This document shows positions 18,631 through 39,700 of a stretch of 64,000 nucleotides of DNA, piece by piece; position 1 is the first letter of the stretch; every line of letters begins with the position of its first letter. Source of the DNA: Candidatus Poribacteria bacterium. GTDB lineage: Bacteria; Poribacteria; WGA-4E; UBA9662. Position numbers and translations under genes: made by a program. The stretch lies in assembly GCA_002709695.1 (NCBI GenBank), contig PAQF01000057.1:62001-126000 (forward strand). The letters are read 5' to 3'. Below the pieces are notes generated by a model that was not told the DNA's origin, did no database searches, and saw only the letters and a program-made list of their open reading frames with translations.

Positions 18631-19851
18631 ATGCGTTACCTTGTTAGCACGTGCTATTTCCTATTGATTGTGGAGATATTAGTGATACTTCGATCTTTCT
18701 TTTATGCTCGTCGTGAAAAGAGAAAAACATCTCCTGCCTTTTTTCCTAAAGCTGCTGTTATTGCGCCACACTACGGATGGGATTTTAGAACAGCAGAAAA
18801 TGTTAAACGGGTACTTAAACAAGACTATGCTGGTGATCATCTTGTCTATTTAGTAACAAACTATGTTGGGGATGCAGGCTATGATAGTTCATATAGACCG
18901 TTATTAGAATTGGTAGAGGGATATACCAATGTGCAAGTTGTATTAGCGCCTAATATTATTGATGATAATCTGCCTAGATCGCAAAAAATACAGAACTTGA
19001 TGTCAGCTATCGAATTGCTGCCAAATGATGTAGAAGTTATAGCTTTTATCGATGCTGATGCTGAAATACGAAGTGATTGGCTTAGCCAACTTGTGCAGCC
19101 GCTGAAGGATCCGAAAGTTGGTGCGACGGTTGGTGGGCGGTTCTATCTTGTTACGGAGGAAAATGGCTTTTTGAAAGATCTCGCTACAGTAACTGAGGCT
19201 GCATGGGTAAACTTTCAGCTTGCCATTCAGGGGGATCATCCATTAACTATGGTTTGGGGCGGGTCAAATGCGATTAGACGGAAATTGATCAGCCAAGGAA
19301 AAGTTTTAGAACGTTGGGCTCGGGCAGCTATCGAAGATCATAATCTCACGTTTGCAGTCAGATCGCTCAATCAGAAAATTCATTTTGTTCCAGAGGCTAT
19401 CTCGATATGTCACACAAAACATAGATCATGGAAGCAAGTTCTTGAATTTACTAACAGGCAAACTATTATGACATACTGGATGCGACATAAAATACAATGG
19501 GCAATTCTTTTTATGACGGTTGTTCCAAAAACATTAATTCTGTTTTCTGTGCCTTTTCTTGCTTTATCGATGCGTACTACCATGTGGCTGTTTACCCTAA
19601 TTCCTTTTTTGCTTCTGGAAATCTATTTTTATCGACACTCTTTCTTTGTTTTACCAGACGAGATGAAACACAATCAGCAGATTCGAGAAAATATTAAGCG
19701 TACATCTTTCGTTATTTCCATTTCAGGTTTTGTCGCCGCCGTAAATGCTGTGTGGGCAATATTTCAAAATGAGATTGTTTGGGGTAATGTGCGTTATAGA
19801 ATTCTCTCCGACACGGAATGTCAGGTCTTAGGTCGAGTCACTAACGAATAA
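18631..19851 (+). CDS. Membrane glycosyltransferase, family 2 (ceramide-glucosyltransferase/HpnI-like)
   Basis: A 406-residue membrane-bound glycosyltransferase. It has an N-terminal membrane helix (about 3-22), a GT-A catalytic domain with the metal-binding DAD at 141-143, WGGSNAIRR near 209-217, the catalytic-base ED at 235-236, and a C-terminal membrane region (about 298-345 plus a shorter helix near 365-385). The long-range pattern (AVIAPHYGWD, then a 'GASNAMR'-like motif) resembles GT2 enzymes acting on lipid acceptors, such as ceramide glucosyltransferases and the hopanoid protein HpnI. The acceptor is unknown. It heads a six-gene operon; the radical SAM gene follows after 37 nt. Confidence 0.83.
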   Translation: MRYLVSTCYFLLIVEILVILRSFFYARREKRKTSPAFFPKAAVIAPHYGWDFRTAENVKRVLKQDYAGDHLVYLVTNYVGDAGYDSSYRPLLELVEGYTNVQVVLAPNIIDDNLPRSQKIQNLMSAIELLPNDVEVIAFIDADAEIRSDWLSQLVQPLKDPKVGATVGGRFYLVTEENGFLKDLATVTEAAWVNFQLAIQGDHPLTMVWGGSNAIRRKLISQGKVLERWARAAIEDHNLTFAVRSLNQKIHFVPEAISICHTKHRSWKQVLEFTNRQTIMTYWMRHKIQWAILFMTVVPKTLILFSVPFLALSMRTTMWLFTLIPFLLLEIYFYRHSFFVLPDEMKHNQQIRENIKRTSFVISISGFVAAVNAVWAIFQNEIVWGNVRYRILSDTECQVLGRVTNE

Positions 19852-19888: not shown

Positions 19889-21109
19889 ATGTCAATTCGA
19901 AGTCGAGTCTCACCACGTTTTTTCATCAAGGAACTTGCGAATGTAGTGTCTGCCGAGTGGCATACATCGTACATTATGGCGCGTTACCAAATGTCTAAAG
20001 AGGTTTTCAATTTTCGGCACCCGTTAGGAGCTAAGCATGGACGGGGTGATAGTGTACAACTTGTTAGCCTTCGGATTACAGATATGTGCAACTTGCGCTG
20101 TCATTCTTGCGGTCAATGGGGAGATAATGGCTATTTAATTGATCAGGATCTAAAAGAATTGAAACAGCGGGAAGTACCAATCGAAGATTATAAGCATTTA
20201 GTCGATCAGATTTTAGATCTTGGATGGTCGCCAGTGTGGTACATCTGGGGTGGAGAGCCAATGATGTATCCTGGTATCGTTGATTTGCTATATTATATTC
20301 ACGAGCGCGGTATGCCGATTTCAATCGTATCGAACGGAACGCGAGTGGCTAAATACGCGAAGGAGATTGCAGAGACATGTGAGGTCCTATATCTGAGTGT
20401 TGATGGGTCAAATGCTGAAATTCACGATAATCAGCGCCCTGCAGTTTCTGGGAAATATAGTAATTTTCAAGATGTCGAAGCGGCACTCCAAAAGGTGAGA
20501 AAAGAAAAAAATAAAAATGATTCGCCTTTTCCATACATAGTTCCTTTAAGTTGCATTACAGCTTATAACATAGATGATGTCGTTGATTTATACAAGTTTA
20601 CTAGTCAGTATGCAGATGCTCAAATCCTTTATCTTACATGGTGGATTGATCAAAAATCTGCAATGGAGCACTCAGATGACTTTGAGCGTCGGTTTGGCAA
20701 AAAACCTCAGACCCACTACGGTTGGATTGGGGAATGGAACCAGTTTGATCATGGTATCATTCTTGAAAAGTATCATGAAATGATACGTATTTCGCAACAG
20801 AGTAATACTTGCCCTCCCATGATGATGCCGGAACTTCAGACAAAAGAGGAAATTAATACATACTATAAGGATCATTCTGAAACTTTTGGTTACAATCAGT
20901 GCGTTTCTATTTACATGACAATGGAAATAGATAGTAATGGCGATGTTAGCCTTTGCCGAGATTACCATGACTATATTATTGGTAATATCCGAAGAGATTC
21001 CGTAGCTGAGATGTGGAACAATGAGAAAGCTGTTCGTTTCCGAAAATCGATTAGTACTGAAGGTCTCATGCCTGTCTGTCGGCGTTGTTGTGGATTGATG
21101 GGTTATTGA
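19889..21109 (+). CDS. Radical SAM protein with SPASM-like C-terminus
   Basis: A 406-residue radical S-adenosylmethionine protein. The 4Fe-4S cluster motif CNLRCHSC (Cys67, Cys71, Cys74) follows LRITDM, and the SAM-binding WGGEPMMYP lies about 50 residues later. The C-terminal part holds further cysteines (QC near 349, LC near 367, CRRCC near 398-402) in the pattern of a SPASM/twitch auxiliary cluster: 'C...I..dGdV..C......iGNI....v.emWnn...'. Such proteins modify peptides, sugars or lipids; the substrate cannot be read from sequence. A GGAAG site precedes the ATG. The gene lies 37 nt after the glycosyltransferase and 17 nt before the kinase homologue, so a surface-polymer or lipid modification role is a reasonable inference. 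Confidence 0.85.
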   Translation: MSIRSRVSPRFFIKELANVVSAEWHTSYIMARYQMSKEVFNFRHPLGAKHGRGDSVQLVSLRITDMCNLRCHSCGQWGDNGYLIDQDLKELKQREVPIEDYKHLVDQILDLGWSPVWYIWGGEPMMYPGIVDLLYYIHERGMPISIVSNGTRVAKYAKEIAETCEVLYLSVDGSNAEIHDNQRPAVSGKYSNFQDVEAALQKVRKEKNKNDSPFPYIVPLSCITAYNIDDVVDLYKFTSQYADAQILYLTWWIDQKSAMEHSDDFERRFGKKPQTHYGWIGEWNQFDHGIILEKYHEMIRISQQSNTCPPMMMPELQTKEEINTYYKDHSETFGYNQCVSIYMTMEIDSNGDVSLCRDYHDYIIGNIRRDSVAEMWNNEKAVRFRKSISTEGLMPVCRRCCGLMGY

Positions 21110-21126: not shown

Positions 21127-22593
21127 ATGCCTCTCATTTTAACCATTAATGCAGATAATGCATCTCTTGAATTCAAATGTTTTGAGATGATAGGTGAAGT
21201 TTGTCTTGCCAGCGGGAAATTTAGTGACATTAATAATTCAAATCCCGAATTGACTTATGAGCGCCATGATGGAGATAGCTATAAGTTAGAGGTTCCTCAG
21301 GTTACCTATGACAACGTTTTCTCATTTGTCTCAGCAACTTTGCTCGATAAAGAACACGGCATTATTGATGATATGTCAGCTATTACTGCTGTTGGGCATT
21401 GCGTTATTCATGGAGGAACCCATTTCACTGAGTCACAACTGATTACACCTTTGACAGAAGGATTAATGGAGCAAAATAATCATCTTGCTCCATTGCATAA
21501 TCCTTTTAATTTAAAAGGAGTTCGGTTGTGCCGTAAGATTATGCCGGATACTCCGCAAGTAGCAGTTTTTGATACGGCTTTTCATCAATCAATTCCTGAT
21601 TATGCTTTGGTTTATCCTATTCCATACGAATTTTACATAGAGCATGGTATTCGTCGTTATGGGTTTCACGGAATATCTCATCGTTATGTTTCACATCGTG
21701 CTGCTGATCTCGTGGGACGTCCTCTTTCTAACCTAAAGCTTATCTCCTGTCATCTTGGAAATAGTTGTAGTATTACAGCGATTGATGGTGGATGTTCTGT
21801 GGACACAAGCATGGGGTTTACACCGTTGGAAGGGTTAATGATGAGTACCTGTAGCGGTAATATTGATCCATCTATTATTTTTCATCTGGCGAGAGAACAT
21901 GGTATGTCGATTGATGATATTGAGGCGTTTTTAACTGAGAACAGTGGCTTACGTGGGATCTCGGGGCTCGAATTAGATTTTCGGGAATTTCTTAATACTA
22001 CCTCAATAGATGATGCGCGTGTAATGCTTGCTTTGAAAATGTTTTGTTATCGTGTCAGTCAGTATATTGGTAAATATGTTGCTTCGCTTGGTGGTCTTGA
22101 TGCGCTTATCTTTACGGGTGAGATAGGGGGGAATATGGCAAGAATTCGGTCGAAAGTCTGTGAAAAACTTGGTTTCTTGGGTATCGAAGTTGATCCGAAT
22201 AAAAATAGTAATAGGGTATGTGAGAAAGAAATTAGTCGTGATGGTGCTACAGTTCAAACGTTCCTAATCCCGACGAATGTAGAATTGATGATTGCACGAG
22301 AGACACTTGATCTTGTCCAAAAACCTCCGGAACGGATTGACCGGGTGACACAATTTTCACGTTTGATGGAGATTGTTGAAAAACGTGACGCATGTCCTGC
22401 TGAGTTCCCTCAATTATTGGAGCAACCTAACCAAAAAGGAAATAGCAAACTACGTAATCAGAATTTACAGTCTGAACAGACGCGAATTTATGGCCGGCAA
22501 CCGGTTGAGTCGCTAGAGTTGGAAGGGACCATGGATATAGAGCCTCCATTCGCGCCCAGTGCATGGTTATCGATCTATAATGAAAAGCCGTGA
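21127..22593 (+). CDS. Acetate kinase homologue with lost catalytic residues
   Basis: Clearly derived from acetate kinase: LAPLHNPFNLKGV, VFDTAFHQSIP, PYEFYIEHGIRRYGFHGISHRYV and SMGFTPLEGL all match. Aligned to Methanosarcina AckA with a constant offset of one residue, three catalytic positions are changed. Arg91 (in GHRVVHGG) is Cys92 (codon TGC at 21400), Arg241 (in MGTR) is Cys242 (codon TGT at 21850), and the Mg-binding Glu384 (PTNEE) is Val385. The glycine motif GIGEN is GEIGGN. It is also longer (488 versus about 400), with a polar C-terminal extension of about 90 residues. No phosphotransacetylase gene is near. It is probably not an acetate kinase; a binding, regulatory or altered phosphotransfer role is possible. 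The Methanosarcina numbering is recalled from memory. Confidence 0.85.
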   Translation: MPLILTINADNASLEFKCFEMIGEVCLASGKFSDINNSNPELTYERHDGDSYKLEVPQVTYDNVFSFVSATLLDKEHGIIDDMSAITAVGHCVIHGGTHFTESQLITPLTEGLMEQNNHLAPLHNPFNLKGVRLCRKIMPDTPQVAVFDTAFHQSIPDYALVYPIPYEFYIEHGIRRYGFHGISHRYVSHRAADLVGRPLSNLKLISCHLGNSCSITAIDGGCSVDTSMGFTPLEGLMMSTCSGNIDPSIIFHLAREHGMSIDDIEAFLTENSGLRGISGLELDFREFLNTTSIDDARVMLALKMFCYRVSQYIGKYVASLGGLDALIFTGEIGGNMARIRSKVCEKLGFLGIEVDPNKNSNRVCEKEISRDGATVQTFLIPTNVELMIARETLDLVQKPPERIDRVTQFSRLMEIVEKRDACPAEFPQLLEQPNQKGNSKLRNQNLQSEQTRIYGRQPVESLELEGTMDIEPPFAPSAWLSIYNEKP

Positions 22594-25237
22594 ATTTTTC
22601 GAGAAATTGCCAATTTGGATTGAAAGGAAATCCCTCGTTTTTGGCCTTTTTTTAATGTCTATTTTCATCTTTTCGGCTAGTCGAACATATGCTCAGATTA
22701 CTGACATTGAATATCTTGTCGATCGACTTGATGCGGATGAAATATTTACTCGACAAGTAGCGATAGAAAAATTGGCTGAAATTGGAGAACCAGCATTTCC
22801 TTACCTTGCAGCTACTCTCAGACAGGATAGGCCTATTGCTAGAAGTTCCGCAATCCGTGTGTTGCAAAAAATTGGTCATTCTGCAATTCCGATTCTCTCA
22901 CTTGCAGTCAAAGATCCTGTCCTCAAAGAACAGAAGGATTCTGTCCTTGGGATATGGACAGATTCTGTACCGGATACACAGAAAGAAGCAATTGAGAGCC
23001 TCCGAGACTTTGGTTTTTCTGTCATAATTGTTCCACTGTTGACGCATGAAAATTCAAATGTTCGGCGAAATTTGGTTTATGCTTTAGGTGAGATGTCAAA
23101 GTCGACCTCTTCCCGTACTGAAGGTTTTCGTGACGTTGTTCCAGCGTTGGTACAGGCCTTAGGTGATCAAAACGTAGAAGTTCAACTTCATGCGATTGGT
23201 GCATTAGGAAAGATGGGGGCTTCTGCAAGAGTGTATAAAGACATTTTGCAGAAAATGTACAGCAAATTCCAATTCAATATCCCTGTGGAATTTGGAGGAG
23301 AATTGGAAGAAGGTAGTGAGTTTATGCTTCCTTTTGCGATTCCACTGGATTTGGTGGCAGACCTTGATCTAGGTTCGGCTATACCACCGGTACTTCTTGA
23401 GCAATTTACATTATTGGGTATCCCAATTTCTAACCAAGCAACTTTAGCAACACAAAAGAAGTACAAAAGTTGGAAGATTCGTGATGACAGAAATAAACAG
23501 ATTTATACTTTGAAACGCAATAATGAGATTATTGAGATTCATCGTGTTAGCATTTCCCGAAATTTACAAATAGCACTTGAAGAAAAAGGACTCTATGTTT
23601 CTAGAAAAGCGAGAATTGATCGGGTGGTTCCCAAAAATGTTTGGCTGTTGGTTGATCGGAATCAAATATATACGATAGAAAGGAAGTCGAATCCTCAACG
23701 AATTGATTTTTCATTAAATCATGAAGATCCAGAAATACGGGCTGCAATAGTCAAAGCACTAGCGCAGATATTAGACCCATCTGAAATCGGAGAGTATCTG
23801 CTAAAAATGTTGGATGACCCCAATAGGTCTGTGATTGGTGCGGCTGCTGCGAGTCTGCCCAAAGCTAGAGGTGAAGATAGAGAGAAAATCATCAGGAAAC
23901 TTATTGCTCGGCTTGGTTCAAAAATGCCTAGGTCTCGATTCTATGCTGCTGTTGCACTGGGAAAAATGAAGGCTCATTCCGCAACCGATGAACTCTTGAA
24001 GATGCTCCAGGAAGGTGGTAATCACGTTGCTGTAGCCGCGGATGCGTTGGGAAACATTCTAGGTCAAGAGCTCGATGAAACAGGCCGTGATAAAATCGTA
24101 GGAATACTGGTAGATGCGCTTACACATGAGAATTTTCTTATTCGGTTAAGTGTGGTTGAGGCTCTGAAGAAAATAGGAAGTTCAGCAGGAAATAAGAGTA
24201 AACTTCTTATTACAAAGAATCTCATTGGGTTGCTTAATGATAGCAATTTACAGGTTCGTCAGAACGCGGCATTGACTTTAGGGAAGATCAGAGAGCCTGT
24301 AGATTTGATTGTATCACAGCTTATAGTTGTTGCTTTGAAGGATCCTAATGTACGTTCAGTTGCTATCGCTGCTCTTGGTGAAATCGGTTATGAGGCTGAA
24401 AAAGCGATACCAACTGTTAAAGATGCATTGTATGATTTGTCTGGGAAGGTTAGAGCAAGCGCTGTCCAGACAATTGTCAGGATTTCACCACAGAGTTCGG
24501 CTGAGGATGATGTTTTGAGCCAAGTTAGGCGGATTCTCGATCAAGATACCAATGAGGATGCCAAAGCGGCCGCAGCCCTAGCATTAGCTGATTTTCATAG
24601 ACTCAACATCCGAGCTATGAATCAAAAAAGAATTAATATAATTTTTTCAGCTCTGGTTCGTTCTTTAGGCGATCCTAGTCAAAAAGTACAAGTAGGTGCT
24701 ATAGAAGCTATTAAAAAGCTTGGTCCTACCGTGACTCCGACATTGCTTGATGCTCAGCAAAGTACTAACCATAGAATTGTCAGAAATTCTGCTATTGTGC
24801 TAGCTTATATTGGTACTCGACACTCATTGGAATGGGGGAGAACAGTTTTACAGGCACTTTTCAGGTTATCTGCGGATAAAAAAGCTGAATATCATCGTAA
24901 GATAATTGATTTGTTAAAAGGTTTTGATGAACTTGCAAAGTTAAATTTCCTAAAAGAAAAATTAGGTGATGAAATCATCGATGTACGAATCCATGCTACA
25001 TATCTTCTCGGTCAAGTGAAAGAACCATCTAATGAAATTATTCCAATATTGGTTCAGGTATTGAAGAATGCCGATCCATATTCAGTAGAAGACTCCAGAG
25101 TTTTTGCGGAAACACATCGAGCGTTGTTAAATTTCAAAATGGCAGAGGCTGATGAGGCCTTAATCAAGGAGAGGGTTAGAGCGTGGCAAAGGCGAAAAAC
25201 CCAGAGGCAACAGAAAGCAGTAGCAGAAGTGCCTTAA
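22580..25237 (+). CDS. Secreted HEAT-repeat protein
   Basis: A protein of about 885 residues with an N-terminal signal peptide (basic stretch, then hydrophobic LVFGLFLMSIFIFSA and a cleavage-like TYAQ) and many HEAT/PBS-lyase-type helical repeats. Units such as 'R..A..aLgeiG.eA...ip.L...L.D.n..VR..A' recur over about residues 45-225 and 370-880. Between the two arrays lie about 140 residues of a different, strand-rich composition. HEAT solenoids serve as protein-binding scaffolds; the signal suggests an extracytoplasmic one. The ATG at 22580 overlaps the kinase homologue by 14 nt; a GTG at 22559 in the same frame is also possible. The protein keeps no catalytic motif that I can see. Confidence 0.85.
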   Translation: MKSREFFEKLPIWIERKSLVFGLFLMSIFIFSASRTYAQITDIEYLVDRLDADEIFTRQVAIEKLAEIGEPAFPYLAATLRQDRPIARSSAIRVLQKIGHSAIPILSLAVKDPVLKEQKDSVLGIWTDSVPDTQKEAIESLRDFGFSVIIVPLLTHENSNVRRNLVYALGEMSKSTSSRTEGFRDVVPALVQALGDQNVEVQLHAIGALGKMGASARVYKDILQKMYSKFQFNIPVEFGGELEEGSEFMLPFAIPLDLVADLDLGSAIPPVLLEQFTLLGIPISNQATLATQKKYKSWKIRDDRNKQIYTLKRNNEIIEIHRVSISRNLQIALEEKGLYVSRKARIDRVVPKNVWLLVDRNQIYTIERKSNPQRIDFSLNHEDPEIRAAIVKALAQILDPSEIGEYLLKMLDDPNRSVIGAAAASLPKARGEDREKIIRKLIARLGSKMPRSRFYAAVALGKMKAHSATDELLKMLQEGGNHVAVAADALGNILGQELDETGRDKIVGILVDALTHENFLIRLSVVEALKKIGSSAGNKSKLLITKNLIGLLNDSNLQVRQNAALTLGKIREPVDLIVSQLIVVALKDPNVRSVAIAALGEIGYEAEKAIPTVKDALYDLSGKVRASAVQTIVRISPQSSAEDDVLSQVRRILDQDTNEDAKAAAALALADFHRLNIRAMNQKRINIIFSALVRSLGDPSQKVQVGAIEAIKKLGPTVTPTLLDAQQSTNHRIVRNSAIVLAYIGTRHSLEWGRTVLQALFRLSADKKAEYHRKIIDLLKGFDELAKLNFLKEKLGDEIIDVRIHATYLLGQVKEPSNEIIPILVQVLKNADPYSVEDSRVFAETHRALLNFKMAEADEALIKERVRAWQRRKTQRQQKAVAEVP

Positions 25238-26541
25238 ATGCATATACATATAAAAAAATTATAATTGAGTTTCTGATTCTGCTGTTTTTTAGTCCGTTTT
25301 TGGCCGCTCAGTGGATTGTTGTACCAATGGACAAATCGCAGACGAATCATCTCAAAGCATATGGTCTCACCTACTGGTCTCTTGAAACCCCACGCGAATA
25401 TAGTGCGAAATGGTTGCTGAATTATCGTGGAGGAGCGTTTTTGTTGTTAGATGCTCCGGATGTTCGAAAAAAATCATCTGAAATGGGGGTGATTTTCGAG
25501 CTATTGTCCAATGTAGATTATATCGCAATGCAGTCTGAAATTGAAAATAGAAATATGGATGAGATCTCGCTTGAAAAAGCTCCAAAGATTGCTGTTTACC
25601 GACCTAGTGACAACAGTCCTTATCAAGATCCGTGGGATGACGCAGTTAAAATTGTCTTGGATTATGCGGATATACCCTATGAAACTGTTTGGGATGAAGA
25701 AGTGATGCAAGGGGCGTTATTGGCAGAGGAATACGATTGGTTACACCTTCATCATGAGGATTTTACAGGGCAATATGGCAAATTTTATGCTTCTTTTCGA
25801 GATCAGGTTTGGTATCAGCAACGTGTACGAATATACCAAGATGTCGCGCGGAAATCAGGGTTCGATAGTGTTGCTCGCCAAAAAGGTCATATTGCCGAAC
25901 TCATTCGGGATTATATTGTGAAGGGGGGATTTTTATTTGCAATGTGTTCTGCACCTGAAACGCTTGATATTGCTTTGGCTACCGATGGTGGCCGTATTGA
26001 CATTGTGGCTCCTGAGATCGATGGAACGCCAGTTCAAACCAACTACCACTCACAGCTTAAATTCGATCGAACATTTGCCTTCAAGGATTTTGAACTTTAT
26101 CCTGACCCGAACCGATACGAGTTTTCAAATATCGATAACCCAAAACCAGAGCTTAATCCTCTTACTGGAATTGAGGACTTTATACTTTTTGAATTCGCGG
26201 CGAAGCATGATCCAATTCCAGCAATGTTAACGCAGAATCATAACGGTCGAGTTTTCGGTTACCTGGGTCAGACAACCTCCTTCAACAAGAACACTATCCG
26301 TCAATCTACGACGATTCTTGGGGAAATCGAGGGTACTAAGTATGCAAAGTATATTCATGGGAATTTGGGAAAAGGTACCTTCACTTTTTTGGCTGGACAT
26401 GATCCAGAAGATTATCGGCATCTTGTTGGTGAGGGACGAATTCCTACCAATCTTAATCTGCATAAACATTCGTCTGGCTACCGATTGATTCTAAACAATA
26501 TTTTGTTTCCTGCTGCTAAAAAGAAACCACAAAAGACATGA
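25183..26541 (+). CDS. Exported protein of the family often labelled 'asparagine synthetase B'; start uncertain
   Basis: The body (PMDKSQTNHLKAYG, WLLNYRGGAF, EYDWLHLHHEDFTGQYGKFY, LTQNHNGRV, GGHDPEDY-like, and the C-terminus GYRLILNNILFPAAKKK) closely resembles a family conserved in Bacteroidota and labelled asparagine synthetase B, although it has no asparagine-synthetase domain. A CSAPE segment near residue 265 suggests a class I glutamine-amidotransferase-like fold. The open frame starts at a GTG at 25183, inside the HEAT gene. An ATG at 25238, directly after the HEAT stop, would give a neat signal peptide (MHIHIKKIIIEFLILL...) but is one base out of frame at an A7 tract (25252-25258). 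Function unknown; role near the surface inferred from its signal. Confidence 0.75.
   Translation: MAKAKNPEATESSSRSALNAYTYKKIIIEFLILLFFSPFLAAQWIVVPMDKSQTNHLKAYGLTYWSLETPREYSAKWLLNYRGGAFLLLDAPDVRKKSSEMGVIFELLSNVDYIAMQSEIENRNMDEISLEKAPKIAVYRPSDNSPYQDPWDDAVKIVLDYADIPYETVWDEEVMQGALLAEEYDWLHLHHEDFTGQYGKFYASFRDQVWYQQRVRIYQDVARKSGFDSVARQKGHIAELIRDYIVKGGFLFAMCSAPETLDIALATDGGRIDIVAPEIDGTPVQTNYHSQLKFDRTFAFKDFELYPDPNRYEFSNIDNPKPELNPLTGIEDFILFEFAAKHDPIPAMLTQNHNGRVFGYLGQTTSFNKNTIRQSTTILGEIEGTKYAKYIHGNLGKGTFTFLAGHDPEDYRHLVGEGRIPTNLNLHKHSSGYRLILNNILFPAAKKKPQKT
25252..25258 (+). repeat. A7 homopolymer in the signal-peptide region
   Basis: Seven adenines fourteen bases after the ATG at 25238. With eight adenines the ATG would be in frame with the downstream coding region. 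Confidence 0.6.
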
Positions 26542-29500
26542 TGTTCAAGGACAAATTCAACCTCTTAGGCTTTATCTTTCTTATCTTCGTTTTTTTTTTA
26601 GCTCTGTAGCTAAATCTGAATTAATAGTAACTGTCCTTGATCAAACTGGAAATCCAATTTCTCCGGTTCGTGTTCAAGTTTTCCCCGGTAAACTGACCCC
26701 AGATAGTGAAGTCGAGCCTATTTCGCCTCCTAGCCCACGTGCTGATGGGTTCATTGGTTTTGTCACGGATTTAAGTGGTGTGGTGGAAGTTGATCTTGTG
26801 GATGGTGATTATAGTGTAGTTGCGTCACCTGATCTTGATTCTGGAAATATTCGCCAGAGTTTTTTGATTGTAAAGAGTGTTTTAGCCCCGGGAAAGACAA
26901 CACTTTTTGCCAATCGGACGGCACCAGTAACTGTTTCAGCTATTGGTATAGATCGACATGCAGGTGCTTTAGGGCCTCTGATTGCTGCTCGGGTGTACTT
27001 TAGAGCTGGAAGACGTGCGGTTGGGTATGTTGGTAATTTGAATAACGACGGTCAGTTGCTGACCTCAATTTCGCCGGGAAACTACCATATTATCATAAAG
27101 GGCTCAATTTCCTTACATTATATTGTGTTACAGAATAAACGAATTACGGATACGCAAAATTCAGTTTCTTTTGATGGTTCACAAATGCCAACCGCCAGTT
27201 TGGCATTTAGACTTCCTGAGAATACTGAACTGGTTCTGAACGAGGTGTTGTCAACCAATTACTCTTATGAGTTCGTCGATATTATTGAGAGTCAGATTGG
27301 TTATGATGCCGCTTATACTGATTCTTTTTCGCTGGCTTTTAGTAATTCCTCGCCAACAATGCAGCTTATGCCTAACTTAATTTATCAATTTAACTTGAGC
27401 TATGTTGTTGATCTTGACGGAGAACTTTATGCTTATGAACTGCGCATTGATGATTTTCAGATTGATCATCCTCAAACCTATACACTTGGTAATTCTGGAA
27501 ATTCGCCATTTAGCTTGTATGCATCGACACCTTCTCAGACCTATTATCCAGGTGATGAGGTTCAAGTTGGGTTTGATATTAGAGACAAACTTGGCAATCA
27601 ATTATGGAGGCTTTTTAACTATTCGTCAGCGCGGCTTGTTTTTCCTTTCGTAGTTGTGAAAGATCCGAACGGAATTATTATTGCTAGCAACCGGATTACT
27701 GACGAGTCGCCAGAAAATTTCTTTCATTTTGCTTTTCTACTTCCACAAACAGCCCAACTTGGTATGTATCGTGTAGATGTGAATTTAGACGGGAAATTTT
27801 ATGGTCAAATAAGCGATGAGTTTCGCTTTTCTGTGATTCCATTGCCCGCATCAAAACCACCGATTATTTCTGATTTGAGTGTTCCAGCTCAGATTCAATT
27901 GGGTGATACTATTCAACTGGCTGCCAGTATTCAGGCAGAGAGCTTGAACAACGTTTCTCTCAAGTTATCTAACCGATTTGGTGCGATGCATTTCTTTCCT
28001 ATCGATGTACTTCAAAATCGGTATTTTTGGCAAATTAGTCCAATTATTTATCAGAATTATGATGAGAATATTAATTGGCAAGTTACAGCTATTAATTCGC
28101 ATGGCCTAAAATCAAGCAAAGATGGTTCAATTACAATAGTCCAAGTTGATTCTCCAAGTATGCCACCTTCTGTCACAGGAGGAAAGGTTCAGCTTACAGT
28201 CGATGAAACGCAAGTTGACCCGATATTTGTTCCTGTGGGTTCTGTGCAAGAGTTCCACGTTGACGATGAAATGCCGATTTGGAATGTGAGTAATGGCATT
28301 GGTTCAATTGATTCCGAGGGTAAGTTTTATTCACATACGGAAGCCGGGAGATCTGGGTTGGTATCAGCAATATTACTCGTGTCATCTAATAAATTTGAAA
28401 GGCTTATCCAAGCCTCAAGAAATATCACCCTTGTTGCGACTGATGTCGATCAGTTGCTGATGGATCCACATTCTAAAATTATGCTTCTCGCTGGTGCCGA
28501 ACAAGATTTTCGGGTAACTCTTACGGATACCTTTGGCAACCAAATAGAAATGTTGGAGAATCGGCTTCGTTGGGAGACTGATGGTGACATCGGGGAGATG
28601 ATTAATAATGTGTTCTTTGCTCAGCAAATTGGGAATGGGCGAGTTACTGCATTTTATGAAAATTTGACAGTTTCAACGGAAATCAGGGTTGTTTTTGGAG
28701 ATTTAAAGTCGATTGAAATCTTTCCAAAGAACATTAACTTGCGTGCGGGTGAAGTTCAAAATTTAACGGCAACGGCCGAGGATATGCTAGGGAATCAGGT
28801 GGAAGTTAATCCGATATGGTCAGTTGGTGGCGGCCTAGGAAGTATTCGCAATAGTACATTCATCGCCAAAGGTGTGGGTGAAGGGGAAATTTCGGCTGCA
28901 CTTTTCAATCTAGTGACAAAAACTCGGGCCATAGTTGTGCGGAATAATCTGCACAATATTACGATTGATCCGTTCATTTCTTATCTTCCAGTATCGAATG
29001 ATAAAATGACATATGCTTATAAGTTTGTAGCGAAAGGTTGGGATGTCATCGGTAACCCAGTACCAATTCAAAATAGTAGTTGGAGTGTTGATACAGCTGC
29101 AGGGATTATCAATTCTAGTGGGTTGATGACATCAATTAACCAAGCTAATTCCCAGACTCTTGGAAACATTGTCATCAATGGTACTATATGGTCTTATGGT
29201 CAAACAATACGTGGACAAGAAGCTATAGCAGGTAAAGGCGTTGTTGTGATACAGAATACTGTCTCGGGTGTGGTGCGTAGCCTTGACATTACACTAAATA
29301 ATTTTGATCAAATTTTAGAACGTTATACTGTTGCTATCAATGAATTTCGGGATTTTGAAATTATTGGTCGTGATCAACAAAATCAACGGGTTCAGATTTA
29401 TCCCAAATGGTCAGTAAATGGAGACATAGGTGTCATCAATTCCAGTGGGGGCTTCACTGCCAAAAGTCTAGGATTAGGGGCTGTCATCGCTACAAGTGCT

Positions 29501-32500
29501 GGTTTAACAACTCAGGTTGAGGTTGAGGTTACACCTGGGGTTTTGGACCGGCTTTTTATTGACCCACCTTATCTATCTTTGCAAGTAGGAGAAAGTCATA
29601 ATTTGTCAATATCTGGTTTTGATGCATTGGGGAATTCTGTTCCTGTTGATCAACATCAATTGACATGGTCAATTAATCCCCAAGTAATTAGCATCGATCA
29701 GAATGGACGCTTGACTGCAAATAATCCTCAACTTACACAAGTCAAAGCAGAGATAGGTGATCGAAGTGCTATTGCACAAATCTTTATTAGACCAGGTTCT
29801 TTACCTAGCGTAGTAACTCCTATGCTAATGTCGGCAGGGAAAGTTGCTCTTCCTGATTTCCCTACTGTGAAGTTTTCAATGCCAACTAATTCGGATTTGC
29901 AAGTCGAAAAATTGAGTATCATTCCGCAAAAGTCAGTGGAGTTAGGGGTCGGTGACACGCAGGATTTTTATCTAATTGCGACTTATTGGAATAAAGGATT
30001 AGCGAGAAAAGAAATTTATCCAATTCCCGCTTTTTGGTGGTGTCCAATAGAATTAGGAATTATAGATGCCAGTGGACGTTTTGTGGCCCAACGCCCCGGA
30101 GTTGGTGAAGTCCGAGCTACCAATGGGAACATAAGTGTTGTTCGATTAGTAACAGTTACTGGAGATAGAGTCTCTCCGAATAGGTCTATGCTGATAGCCT
30201 CAGACCTTGTTAGCTGGAAAATTGTTAGTGATACCCGTGTACGTGCGGGGGAGACATTACAGTTGATAGCATTTGGGCAAACAGCTAGTGGAAATATTCA
30301 ATACATCCGTCCGTTTTATGAAATATTTTCAGATGAGAATGTTGGTCATATTTCAACAGATGGAATTTTTTACGCTAACCAAGCTGGAACAGGGCAAATT
30401 ATCGCGAAGATACTTGGAAATCCTATTTTATTACCTCAGCGTATTCCAATCGAGGTCGTTCCAAATCATTCGAATTCTATTCAACTGGAACCTCGTCAAG
30501 TTGTTATCGACGAAGGAAATGAAACTAGTAATATCAAATTTAGGTTGGTAGCATTTGACCTGTATGGTAACCACACTAATTTGCCCGAAATTCCGGTAAC
30601 TTGGGATGTAGTTGGAGATGTTGGTACCATTTTAGCTAATGGGATCTTTATGCCCCAGACAGATGTTGAATTCAACCTGAGCGGGGAAGTAATTGCAACT
30701 ATTGATGAGGCTAACTTAGTAGCAAGGGCACAGGTTCGTTATTATGCTTCTACGAATCAGGTGGCTCAAGTTCGGGTTGAACCAGACCAAATCGATTTGT
30801 TTCCTGGTGCAAGTTTCCAATTTCATTTGGTTGCCCAAAGCCTTAAGGGAGAACAGGTCAAGACAGGATCGGCATGGGAAATAATCGGCGAAGGGCTGAT
30901 TAGCAGTGATGGTTGGCTGACAGTTAATCAAGATGCAAAAACTGGCAACGCCATTCAAGTTATTGGTGTGGCAAATGAGCTTGATTGGAAATATTCATCT
31001 ACCGCACAGGTTATTGTAAAAGCCCTGCCACTTACGAGATTAGAGATTCAGAATCTTGATGAGGAGTTCGAAGTTGATATTAAGGAGGTTGTTCGGCTTA
31101 AAGCTTTAGGTTTTGATAAAAATGGTAATTCGGTTATAGTGACTCCGAGGTGGTTTGTTCAACCCGCATTCGGTAGTTTTGAAGTTAATGGTGATTTAGC
31201 TACGTTCACGCCAGTGTCCACAGGGAATTTCCAAATTCAGGCTCTAGAAAAGGGGCTTGCTAGTATCATTAATATTCATGTTCTTTCGCCAAGAATGCGT
31301 GGTGATCTTCAAATCGAGTTTAGGGATTTTAGTCTACATCAATCGATGGAGGGACTTGGGACAAATGAAGCGCCATTGTTTCTGAAAGCTGGAGCGAAGC
31401 TTCTCCTCGCTACTGTAATAGATGGAGTAGCGGTTACCGCTAGTTGGAAAGTGAATGGCCAAGGAAGCGTTTACTCTGATAGTGAGAATGTATTTTGGTT
31501 CCGTTCAAATATAGTAGATCGCAATCCAGTTGAGATTATTGCCTCAACGGGTAGTGCTTCTTCATCAATTTTCGTGCGTATTGTTAATGAGGATCTTGCT
31601 ATGTTGCGGTTAGTACCGGAAACAATTTCGATTTTGTTAGATTCTAGTGGTATATCCGAATCTCGACAGTTCACTTGTGTTGGTTTTGATACTTATGGAA
31701 ATATCATTCCTGATAATCAGATGAGTTCACCTGATTGGTCGATAGATGGTGAAATTGGAAAAATCTCCAACTTTGGAATCTTTACTCCGATTAAGTTTCA
31801 TTCCGGGACATCGATCTCTGGGTTGATTATAGCTGAGATTAATGGAGTCTCTGCTAGTGCTAATGTTGTGATTCTTTCTGAGGTTGGAGATTTAGCTTCT
31901 CTCGAAACTATGTTGTCAGCAAAACACGTATCAGCAGGGGAGTCAATCCAAATTACAGTGGTTGGGAGAGACGTTGAAGGAAACCGATTACCGGGAACCG
32001 ACAGAAACCTAACAATATCAGCTATACCAAGGATTGGGCATTTAGAAAAATTAGAAAAGATTTGGGTATATCACGCTCCTGAAATATTACCAGCTGATCG
32101 CATGGTAAATATATTGGCAAAATCCGATAACAATATATCTTCATCTAAGATTAGTATTGAATTGTTGACAGGAGATTTTGCTAATATAAATCTGAATCCA
32201 ACAAGTGTAATACTACGTTCAGGTGACACGCAAGACTTCGAATTCACGGCATTTGATATGTTTGGAAATGTTATTGAGCCATTGGATTTGACTAACCGGC
32301 CACAGTGGGCATTGGCAAAACCAATTGGTATTGTGTCACAAACTGGAACTTATACCGCGACTCAGGTTGGTACCGTACAAATCACTGTTGAATCTGAGGG
32401 TGTTAGTGCTGAAGCAGAAGTCACAGTTATAGCTGGTGATATTGCGTCGATAAAAATTGTGCCTGAAAATTTGTTTGTTTCTGCTGGTGAAGTAACTGAA

Positions 32501-33706
32501 TTTCAACTCCTTGGTTTTGATCGGTATAAAAATCCTGTTGTGGACCCTTTGGTTGATTGGAAGGTTAATGGTCTCGAGAAACTTGGGAATCTATTATCAG
32601 TCAACCAGCACACATTTTTGTGGAAAGCCACAATAGTTGGTGAGGGCGAAATTTTAGCTTCTCTAAATGTTAATCTTAATAGTATTGCGAAGGTCAGGGT
32701 GATCCCGGGAAAGCTTGAGAAACTTGATATTCAGATTCATAGCGGTGGAACTTTGCTTGAGCCACCATATGTTTTAATCTCGGGTGGTGAGTATCAGCTT
32801 TCTGCCATTGGATCCGATGCATTCAAAAATGAAATTCCCGCTCAAATGAGATGGAGCTTGCTTGGCGATTTAGGTTATATAACTAACAATCAGACATTTG
32901 AAGCAACTCTTGTTGGACAGGGGAAAATCAAGGCTGAGGTGGGGCAGGTCAGTTCGCTCGTACGGATTTCGGTTGTATCAAAGTCTAAAACGATTGATGA
33001 TTCTGGTGGTATTCTTGAAAGCCCCACTGGATTTGCCCTTGAAGTTCCAAGACAATCGTTTGACGAAGCATACACAGTCGAGATTGCTGTAATACAATCG
33101 CCTGGCACTGCAATGGACGCGCGACGTATATCAGATGTTATTGCTATACAACCTTATGAATTTACATTCCAGAAGTCGGCGAAAATCATTTTTCGCTACG
33201 ACCATATAGTTGATGTCGAGTTCGATCCGTCAAAACTTCACTTGCATTTCTGGGATTTCTTTCAAGAGACGTGGGTTTGGGTTAGCAGTTACGCTAATTT
33301 AGATATGCAAACTGTTTCTGCCAGTGTCAATCATTTTGGCGTTTTCACTGTAATGGAAGTCGATCGAAAAATAGATTGGGCGAGCAAGTTTCGAGTTGAA
33401 AAAGTTGAGATCAACCCGCCGATTTATTACTCCCCAGAAACAAATCGGTTGTCAATTAAATACGTCATTAACACCTCTAGAAATGCTATTGCAAAGGTCA
33501 CAATTGAGATTTTTGACATGCGTGATCAACATATCAAAACTTTGCTTATTGAGGCAGAACGTTGGAAAGGAAGTAATGTAGAGCAGTGGGATGGTCGCAA
33601 TACAAAAGGGAAAGTTGTCAAAAATGGACGATATGTGATTGTAATCGTTGCTAAGGTAGACGATGAAATAGCCATAGCAAAAAAACTGCTAGTGGTTTTG
33701 AAGTAG
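26538..33706 (+). CDS. Giant Ig-like repeat surface protein, frame broken at T10 in the signal peptide
   Basis: About 2,380 residues. I count about sixteen repeats of 85-100 residues with the pattern 'L.I.P....L..Ge...F...a.D..GN......W...G..G.I...G.F.A...G.g.I.A', resembling bacterial Ig-like (Big) adhesin domains. Near the end come a ZU5-like segment and a FlgD-type Ig domain (FDMRDQHIKTL, EQWDGRNTKG, NGRYVI). The uninterrupted frame begins near 26600, with its first conventional start (GTG) at about 26777. An ATG at 26538, overlapping the previous stop (ATGA), starts a signal peptide MMFKDKFNLLGFIFLIFVFF that runs into a stop unless one T is added to a T10 tract (26590-26599); it then continues SSVAKSELIV. 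Either a sequence error or slippage is involved. Probably a surface or secreted adhesin. Confidence 0.82.
26590..26599 (+). repeat. T10 homopolymer, possible slippage site
   Basis: Ten thymines inside the hydrophobic core of the signal peptide of the giant surface protein. Eleven thymines would restore a continuous frame from the ATG at 26538 to the stop at 33706. Confidence 0.75.
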
Positions 33707-33707
33707 A

Positions 33708-36700
33708 CTAGCGGAGAACGGCTAAACGCTTAATTTCTTCGAGGTGTTGATTTTCTATCTGGACTTGGATTTTGTAAAAGTATGTTCCGTTAGCAAGTCG
33801 TATACCGTCTTCGTCTCGGACGTTCCAGTGTTGTTCGTTATAACCACGTTTAGCCGACGCATCAGAAATCGTACGAATTAAACGTCCTGCAACAGTATAA
33901 ATTTTAATTTCTACTGAGTAGGGAGATTGCGTCAATTCATAAGTAAAAAAGGTCTCATTTTTGATTGGATTAGGTATATTGAGTATCTTAGCGACTTTAA
34001 CGGTTTCATCAATCTGAAAAACAATGTCAGATGATTCAGCTAGGTTGCCGCTTTTGTCTTGAGCTGTGACACGGATTTGATAGTTTGCGTTTGGTATATC
34101 TGGAGCGAAGTATATATTTGCTTGTGTTGGATTCGCAGGATCAAACGTAATATCAAAACTTTTGAGAGTGAGTTCTTCAAGTTGATTTCCCTCAACATTA
34201 AAAAATAGCTTTATTGTTTTTGCATCGATTTCTTTATCATCATTGATTGTTATATCAAACTTTGGTTGTTCGCGTAGAATCATTCTATCTACAACGGGGC
34301 TATCATTAACATACATGTCAATTTTTGGCGGGTAAAGATCTGGGTTTTTATTCACTTGGTATAGAAACTCAGAAAAATCTCCACCAAGTTTATTTCCGTT
34401 AAGATCTTGGGCTCGGACGCGAAATAAATAACGTCCAATAAACAAGATAGGTTCGTATTCAATTGAAATAATAGCTGGGTTGTCTTTATTGGCAACCTTG
34501 AAATCGTTGACTTCAGCAAATGGTCCTTCGTCCTTGCTAAGTTGGATTGAAAAAGAATCGATGTCAATCCCATTTACATCTTGAAGTAACATTGCGATTT
34601 CGGGACGTGGTTCGATTTGGCTCTGTGGCTCTCTTTCTTTGCCATCTACCCACAATTTCATTTTTGGCGGGACTTTATCGGTATTATATGACAATGTAAG
34701 TGGTGCTAGTTCGGTCACTTTGGTTGAGAACACTCCTACCATGGAAGTACTAAACTTCATCTTATCACCAAATTGGAACGGTCTATCTCCTGAGTTAATT
34801 AACAGATCAATACCTATAGCTTTTAGAGTGAGCGGCTGATTAACCCGGCCAACAACTGGACTTCCATGCAGATACCGAATAGGTGTGTTAAGGCTATCAT
34901 GTATTTCAAACCGATCATGCTGAATGAAAAAAAGCAGCCAGTCTCCAGGCTGAAATTCTTCAGGGTAGTCCTTGCTGACATTTGCGTACCCTATGCCGTT
35001 ACCTGCGTTCGCTTTCCGTAATGAATCAACTTGCACTTGTCCATTAGCGTTAACTGCAGTTTCAAAAACGAGAACATCTCCGAATTCAAATTCTTGGTCG
35101 CTACCAACATCATTGAGGTTTAGTTCGAGGCCAAGAATCTCGTCCTTGAATGTTCTGTTTACATAACCATTTTGTCCAAGTTTTTCGATAACACTCGATC
35201 CTTTTGGTTTAATCAAAACTTCGTACGAATGTTTATTTAAGAAGAGAATTACCCACTGGCCAATTGGCGTCAAGTTTGGGTCTATATGGATTTGTGACTT
35301 ACTCAGTTTAGATAGGTTTCTGTTTTCTGCTTGCGTGGGAGTCACAAATTTCTCCTTGAAAATGGGGAAATTTCCATGCTCGTCAGGGATATCCATATCT
35401 CGTTTGACTTTGGAATCTATACGTTTCCATGCTTTAATGTTCTCCTTCCACTTATACACAGAAATGGCTTCTACTTCCCGATTCAACGCAGCCTTGAACT
35501 TCTCATATTGGTCTGGCTGACCAGGGTACAATCCATATTTATTCTGGATTTTTTGTTGCAGTTGATCTAAGCTTAATAATAAATCAATTTGTGTGGGTTT
35601 AGTCAAGTGTGCCTTATCAGACAATAAACCAATTTTGTAGGCACTATAATTTGGGTTCGATACAGCTTTGACCAAATTGGTTAATCGAGGTGTTGGTGCG
35701 GGAAACAAATCTGGTTGGAACGATTTTGGCAGCATGACCTCATCCACAGATATTGTGATTGCAGGGACACCGGCAAGTGTTCCTGCCTCAAAGTTAGCTC
35801 TAAAAACGTGATCTATACTTCTAGCGATTAAGGGCTCATCAACTTTAAGTGTAAACTCGTTCACAATTAAAATTGCGAATGATCTATTGTCAAAAGAACG
35901 TGGTTCATCAAGCTTACCTGTAATAAAATCCCCATGGTCGTCTTCAGGCCCTTCTGGATCGGCAAACACGTATATTTTGTGCAAGCCAGTCGATAAAGGT
36001 GTATTTAGCACTAAGATGGCAGTGGTTTCTTGGAGGCTTCTTGCGCCAGATTTCCAATCGCTTGGCAATATGTCTACATGTCCTAATGTTAAGGCATCTC
36101 GATCAATTTGTTGATCGGCATTCTTATCAGCATCTCCTTCTGAAAACCAGACTTCAATTGCTGAATTAACTGGTCTACCCCCATCGTTAACAATATCAGC
36201 AATTAGTGTGTGTTTTTTTAGCTTAGGGGAATAGCGATAACGGATTGGTGCGATTTGGTTCGCAGAAGATGCGATGGCGAGGTTTGCTCCTTCCGGCACT
36301 TCTACTACTTTGCGTTCTGAACTAATTATGTAGTTAGACACGTCCCTGGCGTGAATTGTATATCGAACAACCCTTCCCCCTTTTGGTAGTGGAATTGGTT
36401 TTTCAATTCGATACCACGTTCCATTCTTGATTGTTGGTCCAGGAGGATTTTGGTCGGGAATCATTCGATAAGTATTGTCTACGAAATTCTGGGTGTCACT
36501 CCAAACTACTTTTACAGATGCAATGCCATCGAGTCCCTTATTATCAACGATTTGGGCTTGTAGATCGAGTGTGTTGGTAACAAGATGATCCATGTTTTCA
36601 CGGATATCGTAAATAAGTGGCTGATGAATCCAAAAACGACTACCTCCTACGGCTGTGTAGTTCTCGTCGTATGCAATTGCCCGAACAGTTCCTTCTCCAA

Positions 36701-39700
36701 ACGAAACTCCTCTCGGGGTTGAAATTCGGACATCACCAAACTCTCCCTGCCAGACAGTAATATTGTTTCGTTCCCGAATAAGTAGCTGAGTTTTAGAACT
36801 AGCTGGGAAGTTCGCTGCCACTTTCAGGTTTTCAGTATTAAAACCTGACTCAATTTGGAAATCGAGTTTTCCTGAGGAATTTAAAGTACTTCGACCAATT
36901 GAATTTCGATGAATTACCAACTCTTTATTAGGATCAACTACTAACTCTTTTAATTCGACATTAATCTTTAATTCTGGTATTGCAAGTCGTGTTGCCGGAT
37001 CACCAAAAAGCGTATACTGCTCCGCACCAGGAATCCATCGTGTTGAAGCGTTACTAATGAATCGAGTCTTAGCTGTAGCAATGATTGATCCTAGTGTTTC
37101 ATGGCTTTCGCTAAGCATGGCCCGAAAAATTTCTTTGTCAAATTCGGCATTTGCACTTCCGTAAGTAAGTCTAGTTGCACTAAGACAAGCAACAGATCCA
37201 TATTCACTAAATGTGAACTGATCGACCAAGCAATATTGGCCAAACTGAAGGGGTTTATCAAACTGACCATTGAGGCAAGTGGTAGCAAGGATAAATGGAA
37301 GATGTTTGTTTCGAAGTGCTCGGGCATCTTCTATCCGAAAGATAGATTCATCTGCCCAAGTCTGAGCACTGCCATGACCAGCGTATTCCACAACAAGTAC
37401 ACCTTCATTGATTGAATCCATAATAATTTTGTTTGTTCGCAATGGGCTTACGATTTCTCGAAGGTAAACTTTCTTCGTATCATAGGCAGGAGGGATCACG
37501 TTTTTGATTAGCTCTTCGCGTGTTTTTTCGAAGATATCATCTTGTCCTGGGTTATCGATTTCATTGTCGGCAATCTCAACTATTCGTCCTTGCCATGGAC
37601 CGCGTTGCAAATTCTTTTCATAGTTAATGATTTTTTTAACAACTATGTCCAATTCATGAGGGTATTGTGCAGGTAAACGTCCTATGTACATGTCTGGCAA
37701 TGAATCGTCACCACTTAGTGTAACAAAGCGATGGTCCATAGCAGTTTCACCACTTTCTGGTGACCAGCCGTGAAAAGTTGGTACAAAGATGGGATATAGA
37801 TTATATTTTTTATCGTAGTCCTTACGGTAGACTTGAACAATTGACCCTTTATAATCATAGTGAGCGTCTCCGACCAGTAGTACAAACGTCGGAGCAGGTT
37901 TTCGCCAGTTTACGTATGCATATCGTAGAAATTTCTGAATAGCGTTTGGATTAAACACGCCATGGCTGAATTGATCATATATTATATCTATATCCACGAT
38001 TTTAACTTCCATCCCTTGGGATTCACGGTATTTAACTAGGGGTTGGATGCTGTCGAAGAAAGTGCTGTGGCTAATGACGATGTAGTCTGCTTGGTTAGTT
38101 GGATTTTTTAAGTCTGACGTTTTTGCTGGTATCAGTTGATCAATGTATGAATAACTAATGCGTTCTGTCGCAAAATAGGTTGTGGGTTGATTCACTTGGT
38201 CTTCGAAGGTAACACGGTATTTTCCCTCAAGTTCGTCAATCCACATATTATGGAGTTTTGCGACTATACTTCCCTTGCGAATTCGGTATAAATCAATTTC
38301 TTTTCCGGAAAAACCATCAATTTTAAACCTTGTTGCTCCTCCTATCGTTGGTGGTTCGGTATCGGAATTAAACTGGAGTTTGCCATTATCGGCATTGAAG
38401 GAATGCCAATAATCCAGTTCTGCCCAATCTAGGTAGAAGTCTACTCTACTTAACGGGGTATGGTTATTATCCCCAGCTAGAATGTTTAGGAAGTTTGGCG
38501 AATCGTGGTGCAAAACAGCATTTTGATCGAATTGGCGAATTAAGAGTGGGGCGCCCTGTTTCCTCCATTCAACAGCCGGTGCTAAGGCTTTTCCGCTCAA
38601 TCGTATCCATGCTCGATGCTGGGCGTTGCTTCTAGTAGATATGCCTTGAAACTTAACCCGTAGCTCACCACGTCTGGAGATTTTGGCTCTGGGAATAGCA
38701 AACGGTAGATCGATTCGAACGCTTTTTTCACGTGCTACTGGATCTGCACCTCCAGTAAAGCGCATCCAAAAATAGTGATCGACAAACTCGGATTTTACTT
38801 CTATGAGTGGATCGTGGTAATAATCTTTTTCAAAATGTTCTGTTTTCTTAAACGCGATTGGTGCTTTGGCATTTCTATCTTTGGGGATTGCATCAATCAA
38901 ATCTATTAGGATGGATGGATCATCACTATTCCAACTCAGCCAGTAAACGTTTTCATCAGTAAACTTATTGTTAATAAGTTTTTCCCCGTAGAATACAATA
39001 CCATCTTTAGTATCCAAGTAGTCATTATGGTTGTTATCAATAGCAAATGCACCTACTTTGAGGCCGCGATTCTCGATTCTGATTGAACTTAGGTCCACAG
39101 TTTTCAGATCAATGCCAAGATTAGTCAAATCGTAAGATTCAATTTTATATAGTCCTGTTTTTTTAACAAAAATTTTGTATCTTGGAGACTCGGCTAATGT
39201 CTTCGCTGGAGCTGTATGGGTCTGCTGTGGGTTTATACGCCAATTAAGGGCTTGATGGTAGTTAAGTAAGTTCGATTGAAAAAAATCTTCAAAATATGGG
39301 GAGTTTCTATCCGTGGTAGCAATAGCTGTTGGTGAATCAAAATCGATCTGAAATTGTAAGGTTTCATAGATTTGATTTGCTTGAACTGGTTGTACTTCAA
39401 TTCGTGCAATATGTTGATCACGAATCATTCCGATAGGGGTGATTCTCACAGAATTCGATGAGGAGTTAGCATTAGTATCAGGTGTGCCAACCAGTTTTAA
39501 GGAGTTGATTGTAACTCTGGGTTTGGATCCAACTGGGATACCTATGAGTTGTGAGAATGAAGCTTGCCGATTGTGTTTTGGAAGTCGAAACTCAATTGTC
39601 AAAGTGTGAGAGTTGGAGTGGAGTAATTGAAACGGTGGAGTATCACAAAGCACATTGGAAATCAAGAAGAAAGAGAGAAAAATTTGGGCAACAGGAAACC

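Follow-up and report, generated by a model that had tools for sequence, protein, structure and literature searches.

Can a protein that has kept the body of acetate kinase (AckA) but lost the residues that make it an enzyme still be of use to the cell, and in what capacity? This question is raised by an open reading frame (ORF) at positions 21127..22593 (+ strand) of a 64,000-nucleotide stretch of DNA, referred to here as the window (G000:C57:62001-126000), which belongs to a host assembly of 5.2 Mb in 87 contigs. The ORF encodes a 488-amino-acid protein of the acetokinase family with a degenerate active site. Its residues 4-391 match the Pfam acetokinase family PF00871 with 418.7 bits (curated cut-off 22), a full-length match to TIGR00016 scores 410.3 bits (curated cut-off 293.4), and AckA of M. 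thermophila (1g99) matches residues 4-399 (E value of 4e-112). On the extents of the Pfam and PDB matches, the kinase domain comprises residues 1-398 (21127..22320, + strand). The AlphaFold2 model, built with 13 rows and of moderate confidence (mean pLDDT of 68), predicts the ASKHA acetate kinase fold, with TMt values of 0.84-0.89 to the best solved acetate kinases in the PDB. Homology to AckA (M. thermophila 1g99/1tuy, T. maritima 2iir) thus extends over the full length and the predicted folds are alike. The coordinates given in the preliminary description of this DNA, and the constant one-residue offset to acetate kinase that it had reported, proved correct against M. thermophila AckA.

The active site was examined in a motif alignment of the ORF, M. 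thermophila AckA, and homologous ORFs of the host and related genomes. As had been claimed, Arg91, Arg241, and Glu384 are replaced by Cys92 (codon TGC, 21400..21402), Cys242 (codon TGT, 21850..21852), and Val385 (codon GTA, 22279..22281), all on the + strand. The suggestion that each arginine was lost through a single C-to-T change is plausible, because homologues mostly use CGC or CGT at these positions. The adenosine motif, GIGEN in the relatives, is indeed altered and reads EIGGN (residues 332-336, 22120..22134, + strand). The alignment also revealed changes not previously noted, namely, Gly9 to Asp10, Ser10 to Asn11, Lys14 to Glu15, Gly212 to Ser213, Gly331 to Glu332, and Glu334 to Gly335. 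Residues 9-15 of the phosphate-1 loop region (21151..21171, + strand) are consequently ADNASLE instead of AGSSS(I/L)K, so that the loop reads NADNASLE where an active acetate kinase is expected to have NAGSSSxK. In contrast to the 1g99, 1tuy, and 2iir proteins, the ORF product therefore has no equivalents of Arg91, Arg241, Glu384, Lys14, Gly331, and Glu334. On the other hand, Asn8, His124, Asp149, His181, His209, Asn212, Asp284, and Arg286 are kept (M. thermophila numbers are one lower), and these include the counterparts of Asn7, His123, Asp148, His180, His208, and Arg285 of the archetypal enzyme. Ligand positions had changed more often than other conserved positions, a difference that was nonsignificant and suggestive only (p = 0.06-0.10).

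Substitutions at these positions are known to be severe: in P. gingivalis Ack, activity was 0.6% for R91A and 3.9% for R241A and was not detectable for E385A, while R91A and R241A of the M. thermophila enzyme retained a kcat of 0.3 and 0.4% of the wild type, respectively (PMC6461089). Given that changes at the arginines, the loops, and the metal-site glutamate are combined in one protein, ordinary acetate kinase activity is, judged from its sequence, very unlikely. What the alignment describes is a homologue without conserved catalytic residues, which is one mark of a pseudoenzyme. Since Asn8, His124, Asp149, His181, His209, and Asn212 are kept, however, residual chemistry or some ligand binding is possible.

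The gene lies in an operon on the + strand. A family-2 glycosyltransferase gene (GT2; 18631..19851), HpnI-like but far below the HpnI cut-off, is followed by a gene for a radical SAM/SPASM protein (19889..21109; PF04055, PF13186) located 17 bases upstream of the AckA gene. Downstream, the ATG of a HEAT-repeat protein gene (22580..25237; PF13646) overlaps the AckA stop codon by 14 bases, and next come a 452-residue protein without Pfam or NCBIfam family (25183..26541; 85% identical in G001, a separate metagenome-assembled genome [MAG] of the same genus) and a large surface-type protein with MG2, Big_2, and FlgD-Ig domain matches (26780..33706). The term "surface-protein operon" used in the preliminary description fits these three downstream proteins but not the upstream part, as the GT2-radical SAM pair is widespread. 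Matches to the radical SAM protein came from 70 of the 73 genomes of the order, and GT2 usually lies close to it, the two being paired in most relatives and in nearly all genomes of the order, while AckA is usually absent there. The pair also occurs in some genomes of other phyla (among loci L080-L159), and in two genomes outside the phylum (L136, L139) it adjoins an RND protein that is HpnN-like, although below the HpnN cut-off. Because HpnN is the nearest family of this neighbor, the pair may hint at lipid glycosylation or transport, which we offer as a lead only. On the strand opposite the operon, positions 33708-39731 encode a 2007-residue Peptidase_C25 protein with an FlgD-Ig end and a weak match to the Por secretion tail.

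The named relatives carrying the window neighborhood were Candidatus Poribacteria MAGs. The G001 protein (DTUY01000363.1) is 80% identical to the ORF product and has both cysteines and the C-terminal tail; as this assembly is independent, a sequencing or assembly error is ruled out. It had been proposed that double-cysteine homologues be inspected for radical SAM and HEAT neighbors, and the G001 copy does stand in the order radical SAM-AckA-HEAT. Indeed, the order GT2-radical SAM-AckA-HEAT-unnamed protein-Big_2 protein is common to the window and G001, and GT2-radical SAM-AckA-HEAT is also found in G002, a member of the same family. Since both cysteines are common to the window and G001, the arginines were lost in their common ancestor. 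The G001 copy also has the adenosine changes of the ORF and part of its phosphate-1 changes; Glu384 and Gly212 are still in place, however, and the position of Lys14 is occupied by Arg. Among the polarized changes, the loss of Glu384 was restricted to the window lineage. The G002 operon copy (L036:10116-11663) combines the tail with both arginines, GIGEN, and Glu384, and the copy in G021, from another family, lies in the order GT2-radical SAM-AckA, is tailless, and has a canonical site. A DNA pattern for GHC(V/I/M)(V/I/M)HGG was matched in 2 of the 85 genomes of the phylum, and a protein search of genome contigs for a wider spread of the cysteine form gave no match. As the G002 copy has the tail together with both arginines, the tail would predate the catalytic loss, and the simplest order of events by parsimony would be placement of AckA beside the radical SAM gene, gain of the tail, catalytic loss in the ancestor of the genus, and further loss in the window lineage. 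In a separate observation, the G002 copy carries Lys14 to Arg, Gly210 to Asp, and Asn211 to Ser changes, a possible early erosion at the locus.

The tail comprises residues 399-488 (22321..22590, + strand), ends with APSAWLSIYNEKP, and accounts for the approximately 90 extra residues that had been noted. It was present in all three operon copies of family f1 (G000, the host; G001; and G002) and absent from G021 and from the second copy of the host genome on contig C20, where no tail remnant was seen 3′ of the stop codon in one reading frame of the downstream DNA. In the AlphaFold2 model, the pLDDT of the tail was low save for a short helix at residues 409-422. An APSAWLS-type DNA motif was matched in the three AckA tails and at a single G021 site that lies away from ackA, but nowhere else, so the motif is not common to other proteins; in the control, backward patterns were matched once each in two genomes. 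AckA proteins of Treponema (TP0476, TV0924) likewise have a C-terminal extension, of almost 50 residues (PMC11717252). However, those enzymes are active and, alongside His180, have the Arg91, Arg241, and Glu384 counterparts that the ORF has lost, and their extension forms folded helices, whereas the tail of the ORF is mostly of low confidence in the model.

The preliminary description had also stressed that no phosphotransacetylase is near. This holds beyond the window in that PF01515 was not found in the whole host genome, but a PduL-type phosphotransacylase is encoded on contig C14. The statement weighs little, because this enzyme and a conventional AckA are present on other contigs, and an origin of the catalytic loss in absent acetyl phosphate metabolism is unsupported for the same reason. 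A phosphoketolase, as a source of acetyl phosphate, was looked for and not found. The conventional AckA is the tailless copy on contig C20, which has a canonical site, lies outside the operon, and groups with the G002 operon copy (tree support of 100/99); a C20-like copy was not found in G001. The host has, in addition, a divergent AckA on contig C45 (L047:9057-10241). It belongs to a separate Poribacteria acetokinase clade (C45 copy; L013-L033) that occurs throughout the order and supplies the sole acetokinase match in most f3 genomes. This clade shows Arg91 to Lys, Asp148 to Glu, and Asn211 to Gly changes and a GIGEK motif; it differs from the ORF in being only about 36% identical to it, in having different neighbors, and in keeping Arg241, Lys14, and Glu384.

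Is the ORF then simply a decaying gene? For the kinase domain, comparison of the window with G001 gave a dN of 0.080 and a dS of 1.10, i.e., a dN/dS of 0.073, with the caveat that the double-cysteine form is carried by two species only and that their dS is near saturation. The neighboring genes had values of 0.04-0.16 and the tail 0.244, and residues 301-398 formed the most constrained segment (93% identical, dN/dS of 0.03). We also fitted a purpose-written codon model to six sequences on one fixed tree, in which deep branches are near saturation. The omega of the window branch was 0.10 against a background of 0.06, a nonsignificant difference (2 delta lnL of 3.2), and that of the G001 branch was about 0.04. 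Fixing the window-branch omega at 1 worsened the fit by 9.5 lnL (2 delta lnL of 19), and neutrality was rejected. In simulations of neutral change at 0.2 per site, the frame stayed open in 0.3% of trials. The catalytic loss is thus common to two species separated by about 1.1 synonymous substitutions per site, in which the ORFs are intact and the adjoining genes conserved, and the kinase domain has stayed under strong purifying selection since the arginines were lost, a second mark of a pseudoenzyme. A frame left open under neutrality merely for coupling to the HEAT gene is ruled out by an omega of about 0.1. The earlier supposition that the protein is "probably under selection for another job" is borne out as to selection (dN/dS of about 0.07-0.10) but not as to the job.

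Decay would mean that the operon copy became redundant to the C20 acetate kinase in the window lineage and that its frame is open since the decay is recent. Consistent with this, the C20 copy appears, from its sequence, fully functional, and 32 derived changes in AckA fall in the window lineage, including Glu385Val, Lys/Arg15Glu, and Gly213Ser, compared with 6 in G001. The imbalance was 12 versus 5 for the radical SAM protein and 24 versus 16 for GT2, and the excess in the window lineage makes some relaxation there possible. Nevertheless, the omega of the window branch and the constraint on residues 301-398 argue against decay, as does the fact that the arginines had already gone when the lineage separated from G001, a genome that yielded no C20-like copy and has an omega of about 0.04. 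We consider decay unlikely; if it has begun, it may be confined to the final part of the window branch.

The retained residues raise another option, that of an enzyme with altered chemistry or an altered substrate, in which Asp149, His181, His209, and Asn212 would serve another phosphoryl transfer or a hydrolysis in a pocket enlarged at the former arginines. The catalytic Asp and His are kept, the phosphate-2 motif is largely kept, and the constraint is strong. Yet the phosphate-1 loop and the adenosine motif are changed, as is the metal-site Glu of the window protein, and the Glu that replaces Gly331 brings an acidic side chain to a site where nucleotide contact has been reported, so that we regard such an enzyme as quite improbable. 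Even less credit can be given to a metal or thiol-redox site formed by Cys92 and Cys242 with the nearby histidines and Asp149. Both cysteines are common to the window species and G001, and they probably face one cavity, because Arg91 and Arg241 of PgAck share a sulfate contact (PMC6461089); still, Cys is far shorter than Arg, so the two may be too far apart, and a gain of other metal ligands was not noted. That a site rebuilt from Cys92, Cys242, His124, His181, His209, and Asp149, with a metal or thiol function, senses or modifies something for the radical SAM-glycosyltransferase pathway is just as far-fetched.

We favor as probable the reading that the ORF encodes an acetate-kinase pseudoenzyme specific to this lineage, whose folded and probably dimeric body has been retained as a scaffold or regulator. 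A dimeric noncatalytic role is preferred because the residues that make up the StAckA dimer-interface pocket (PMC3475010) are intact (Arg177, Asp226-Met229, Arg309, and Tyr313 in ORF numbering) and because residues 301-398 are the most constrained. A former acetate kinase in a GT2-radical SAM-AckA-HEAT operon would thus have turned into a pseudoenzyme in one Poribacteria genus. In the first step, the operon copy would have acquired the C-terminal tail with its conserved end; in the second, the ancestor shared by the window species and its sister would have acquired the changes at the two catalytic arginines, in the phosphate-1 loop, and in the adenosine motif; and in the third, the Glu384, Lys14, and Gly212 positions would have changed as well in the window lineage. 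The protein most likely works by binding, scaffolding or regulating an operon partner through its body and tail, and the tail is a likely contact. As the tail would predate the arginine loss, a binding role may have come first and existed before catalysis was lost.

Alternatively, the pseudoenzyme might pair with an active acetate kinase in a heterodimer. The T. brucei AdoMetDC prozyme (PMC5201418) offers a parallel: it is described as a catalytically impaired paralogue that, like the ORF, occurs beside an active paralogue in one genome and that regulates it. The candidate partner of the ORF, however, is the C20 enzyme, which lies outside the operon and has no counterpart found in G001. A literature search, with most subscription papers outside its scope, retrieved no description of an acetate-kinase pseudoenzyme.

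Collectively, the operon copies capture steps on the way from enzyme to pseudoenzyme, from canonical and tailless in G021 through near-canonical and tailed in G002 to partly degenerate in G001 and more so in the window. Family models nevertheless label the ORF product an acetate/propionate family kinase, an annotation that would mislead metabolic models of Poribacteria.
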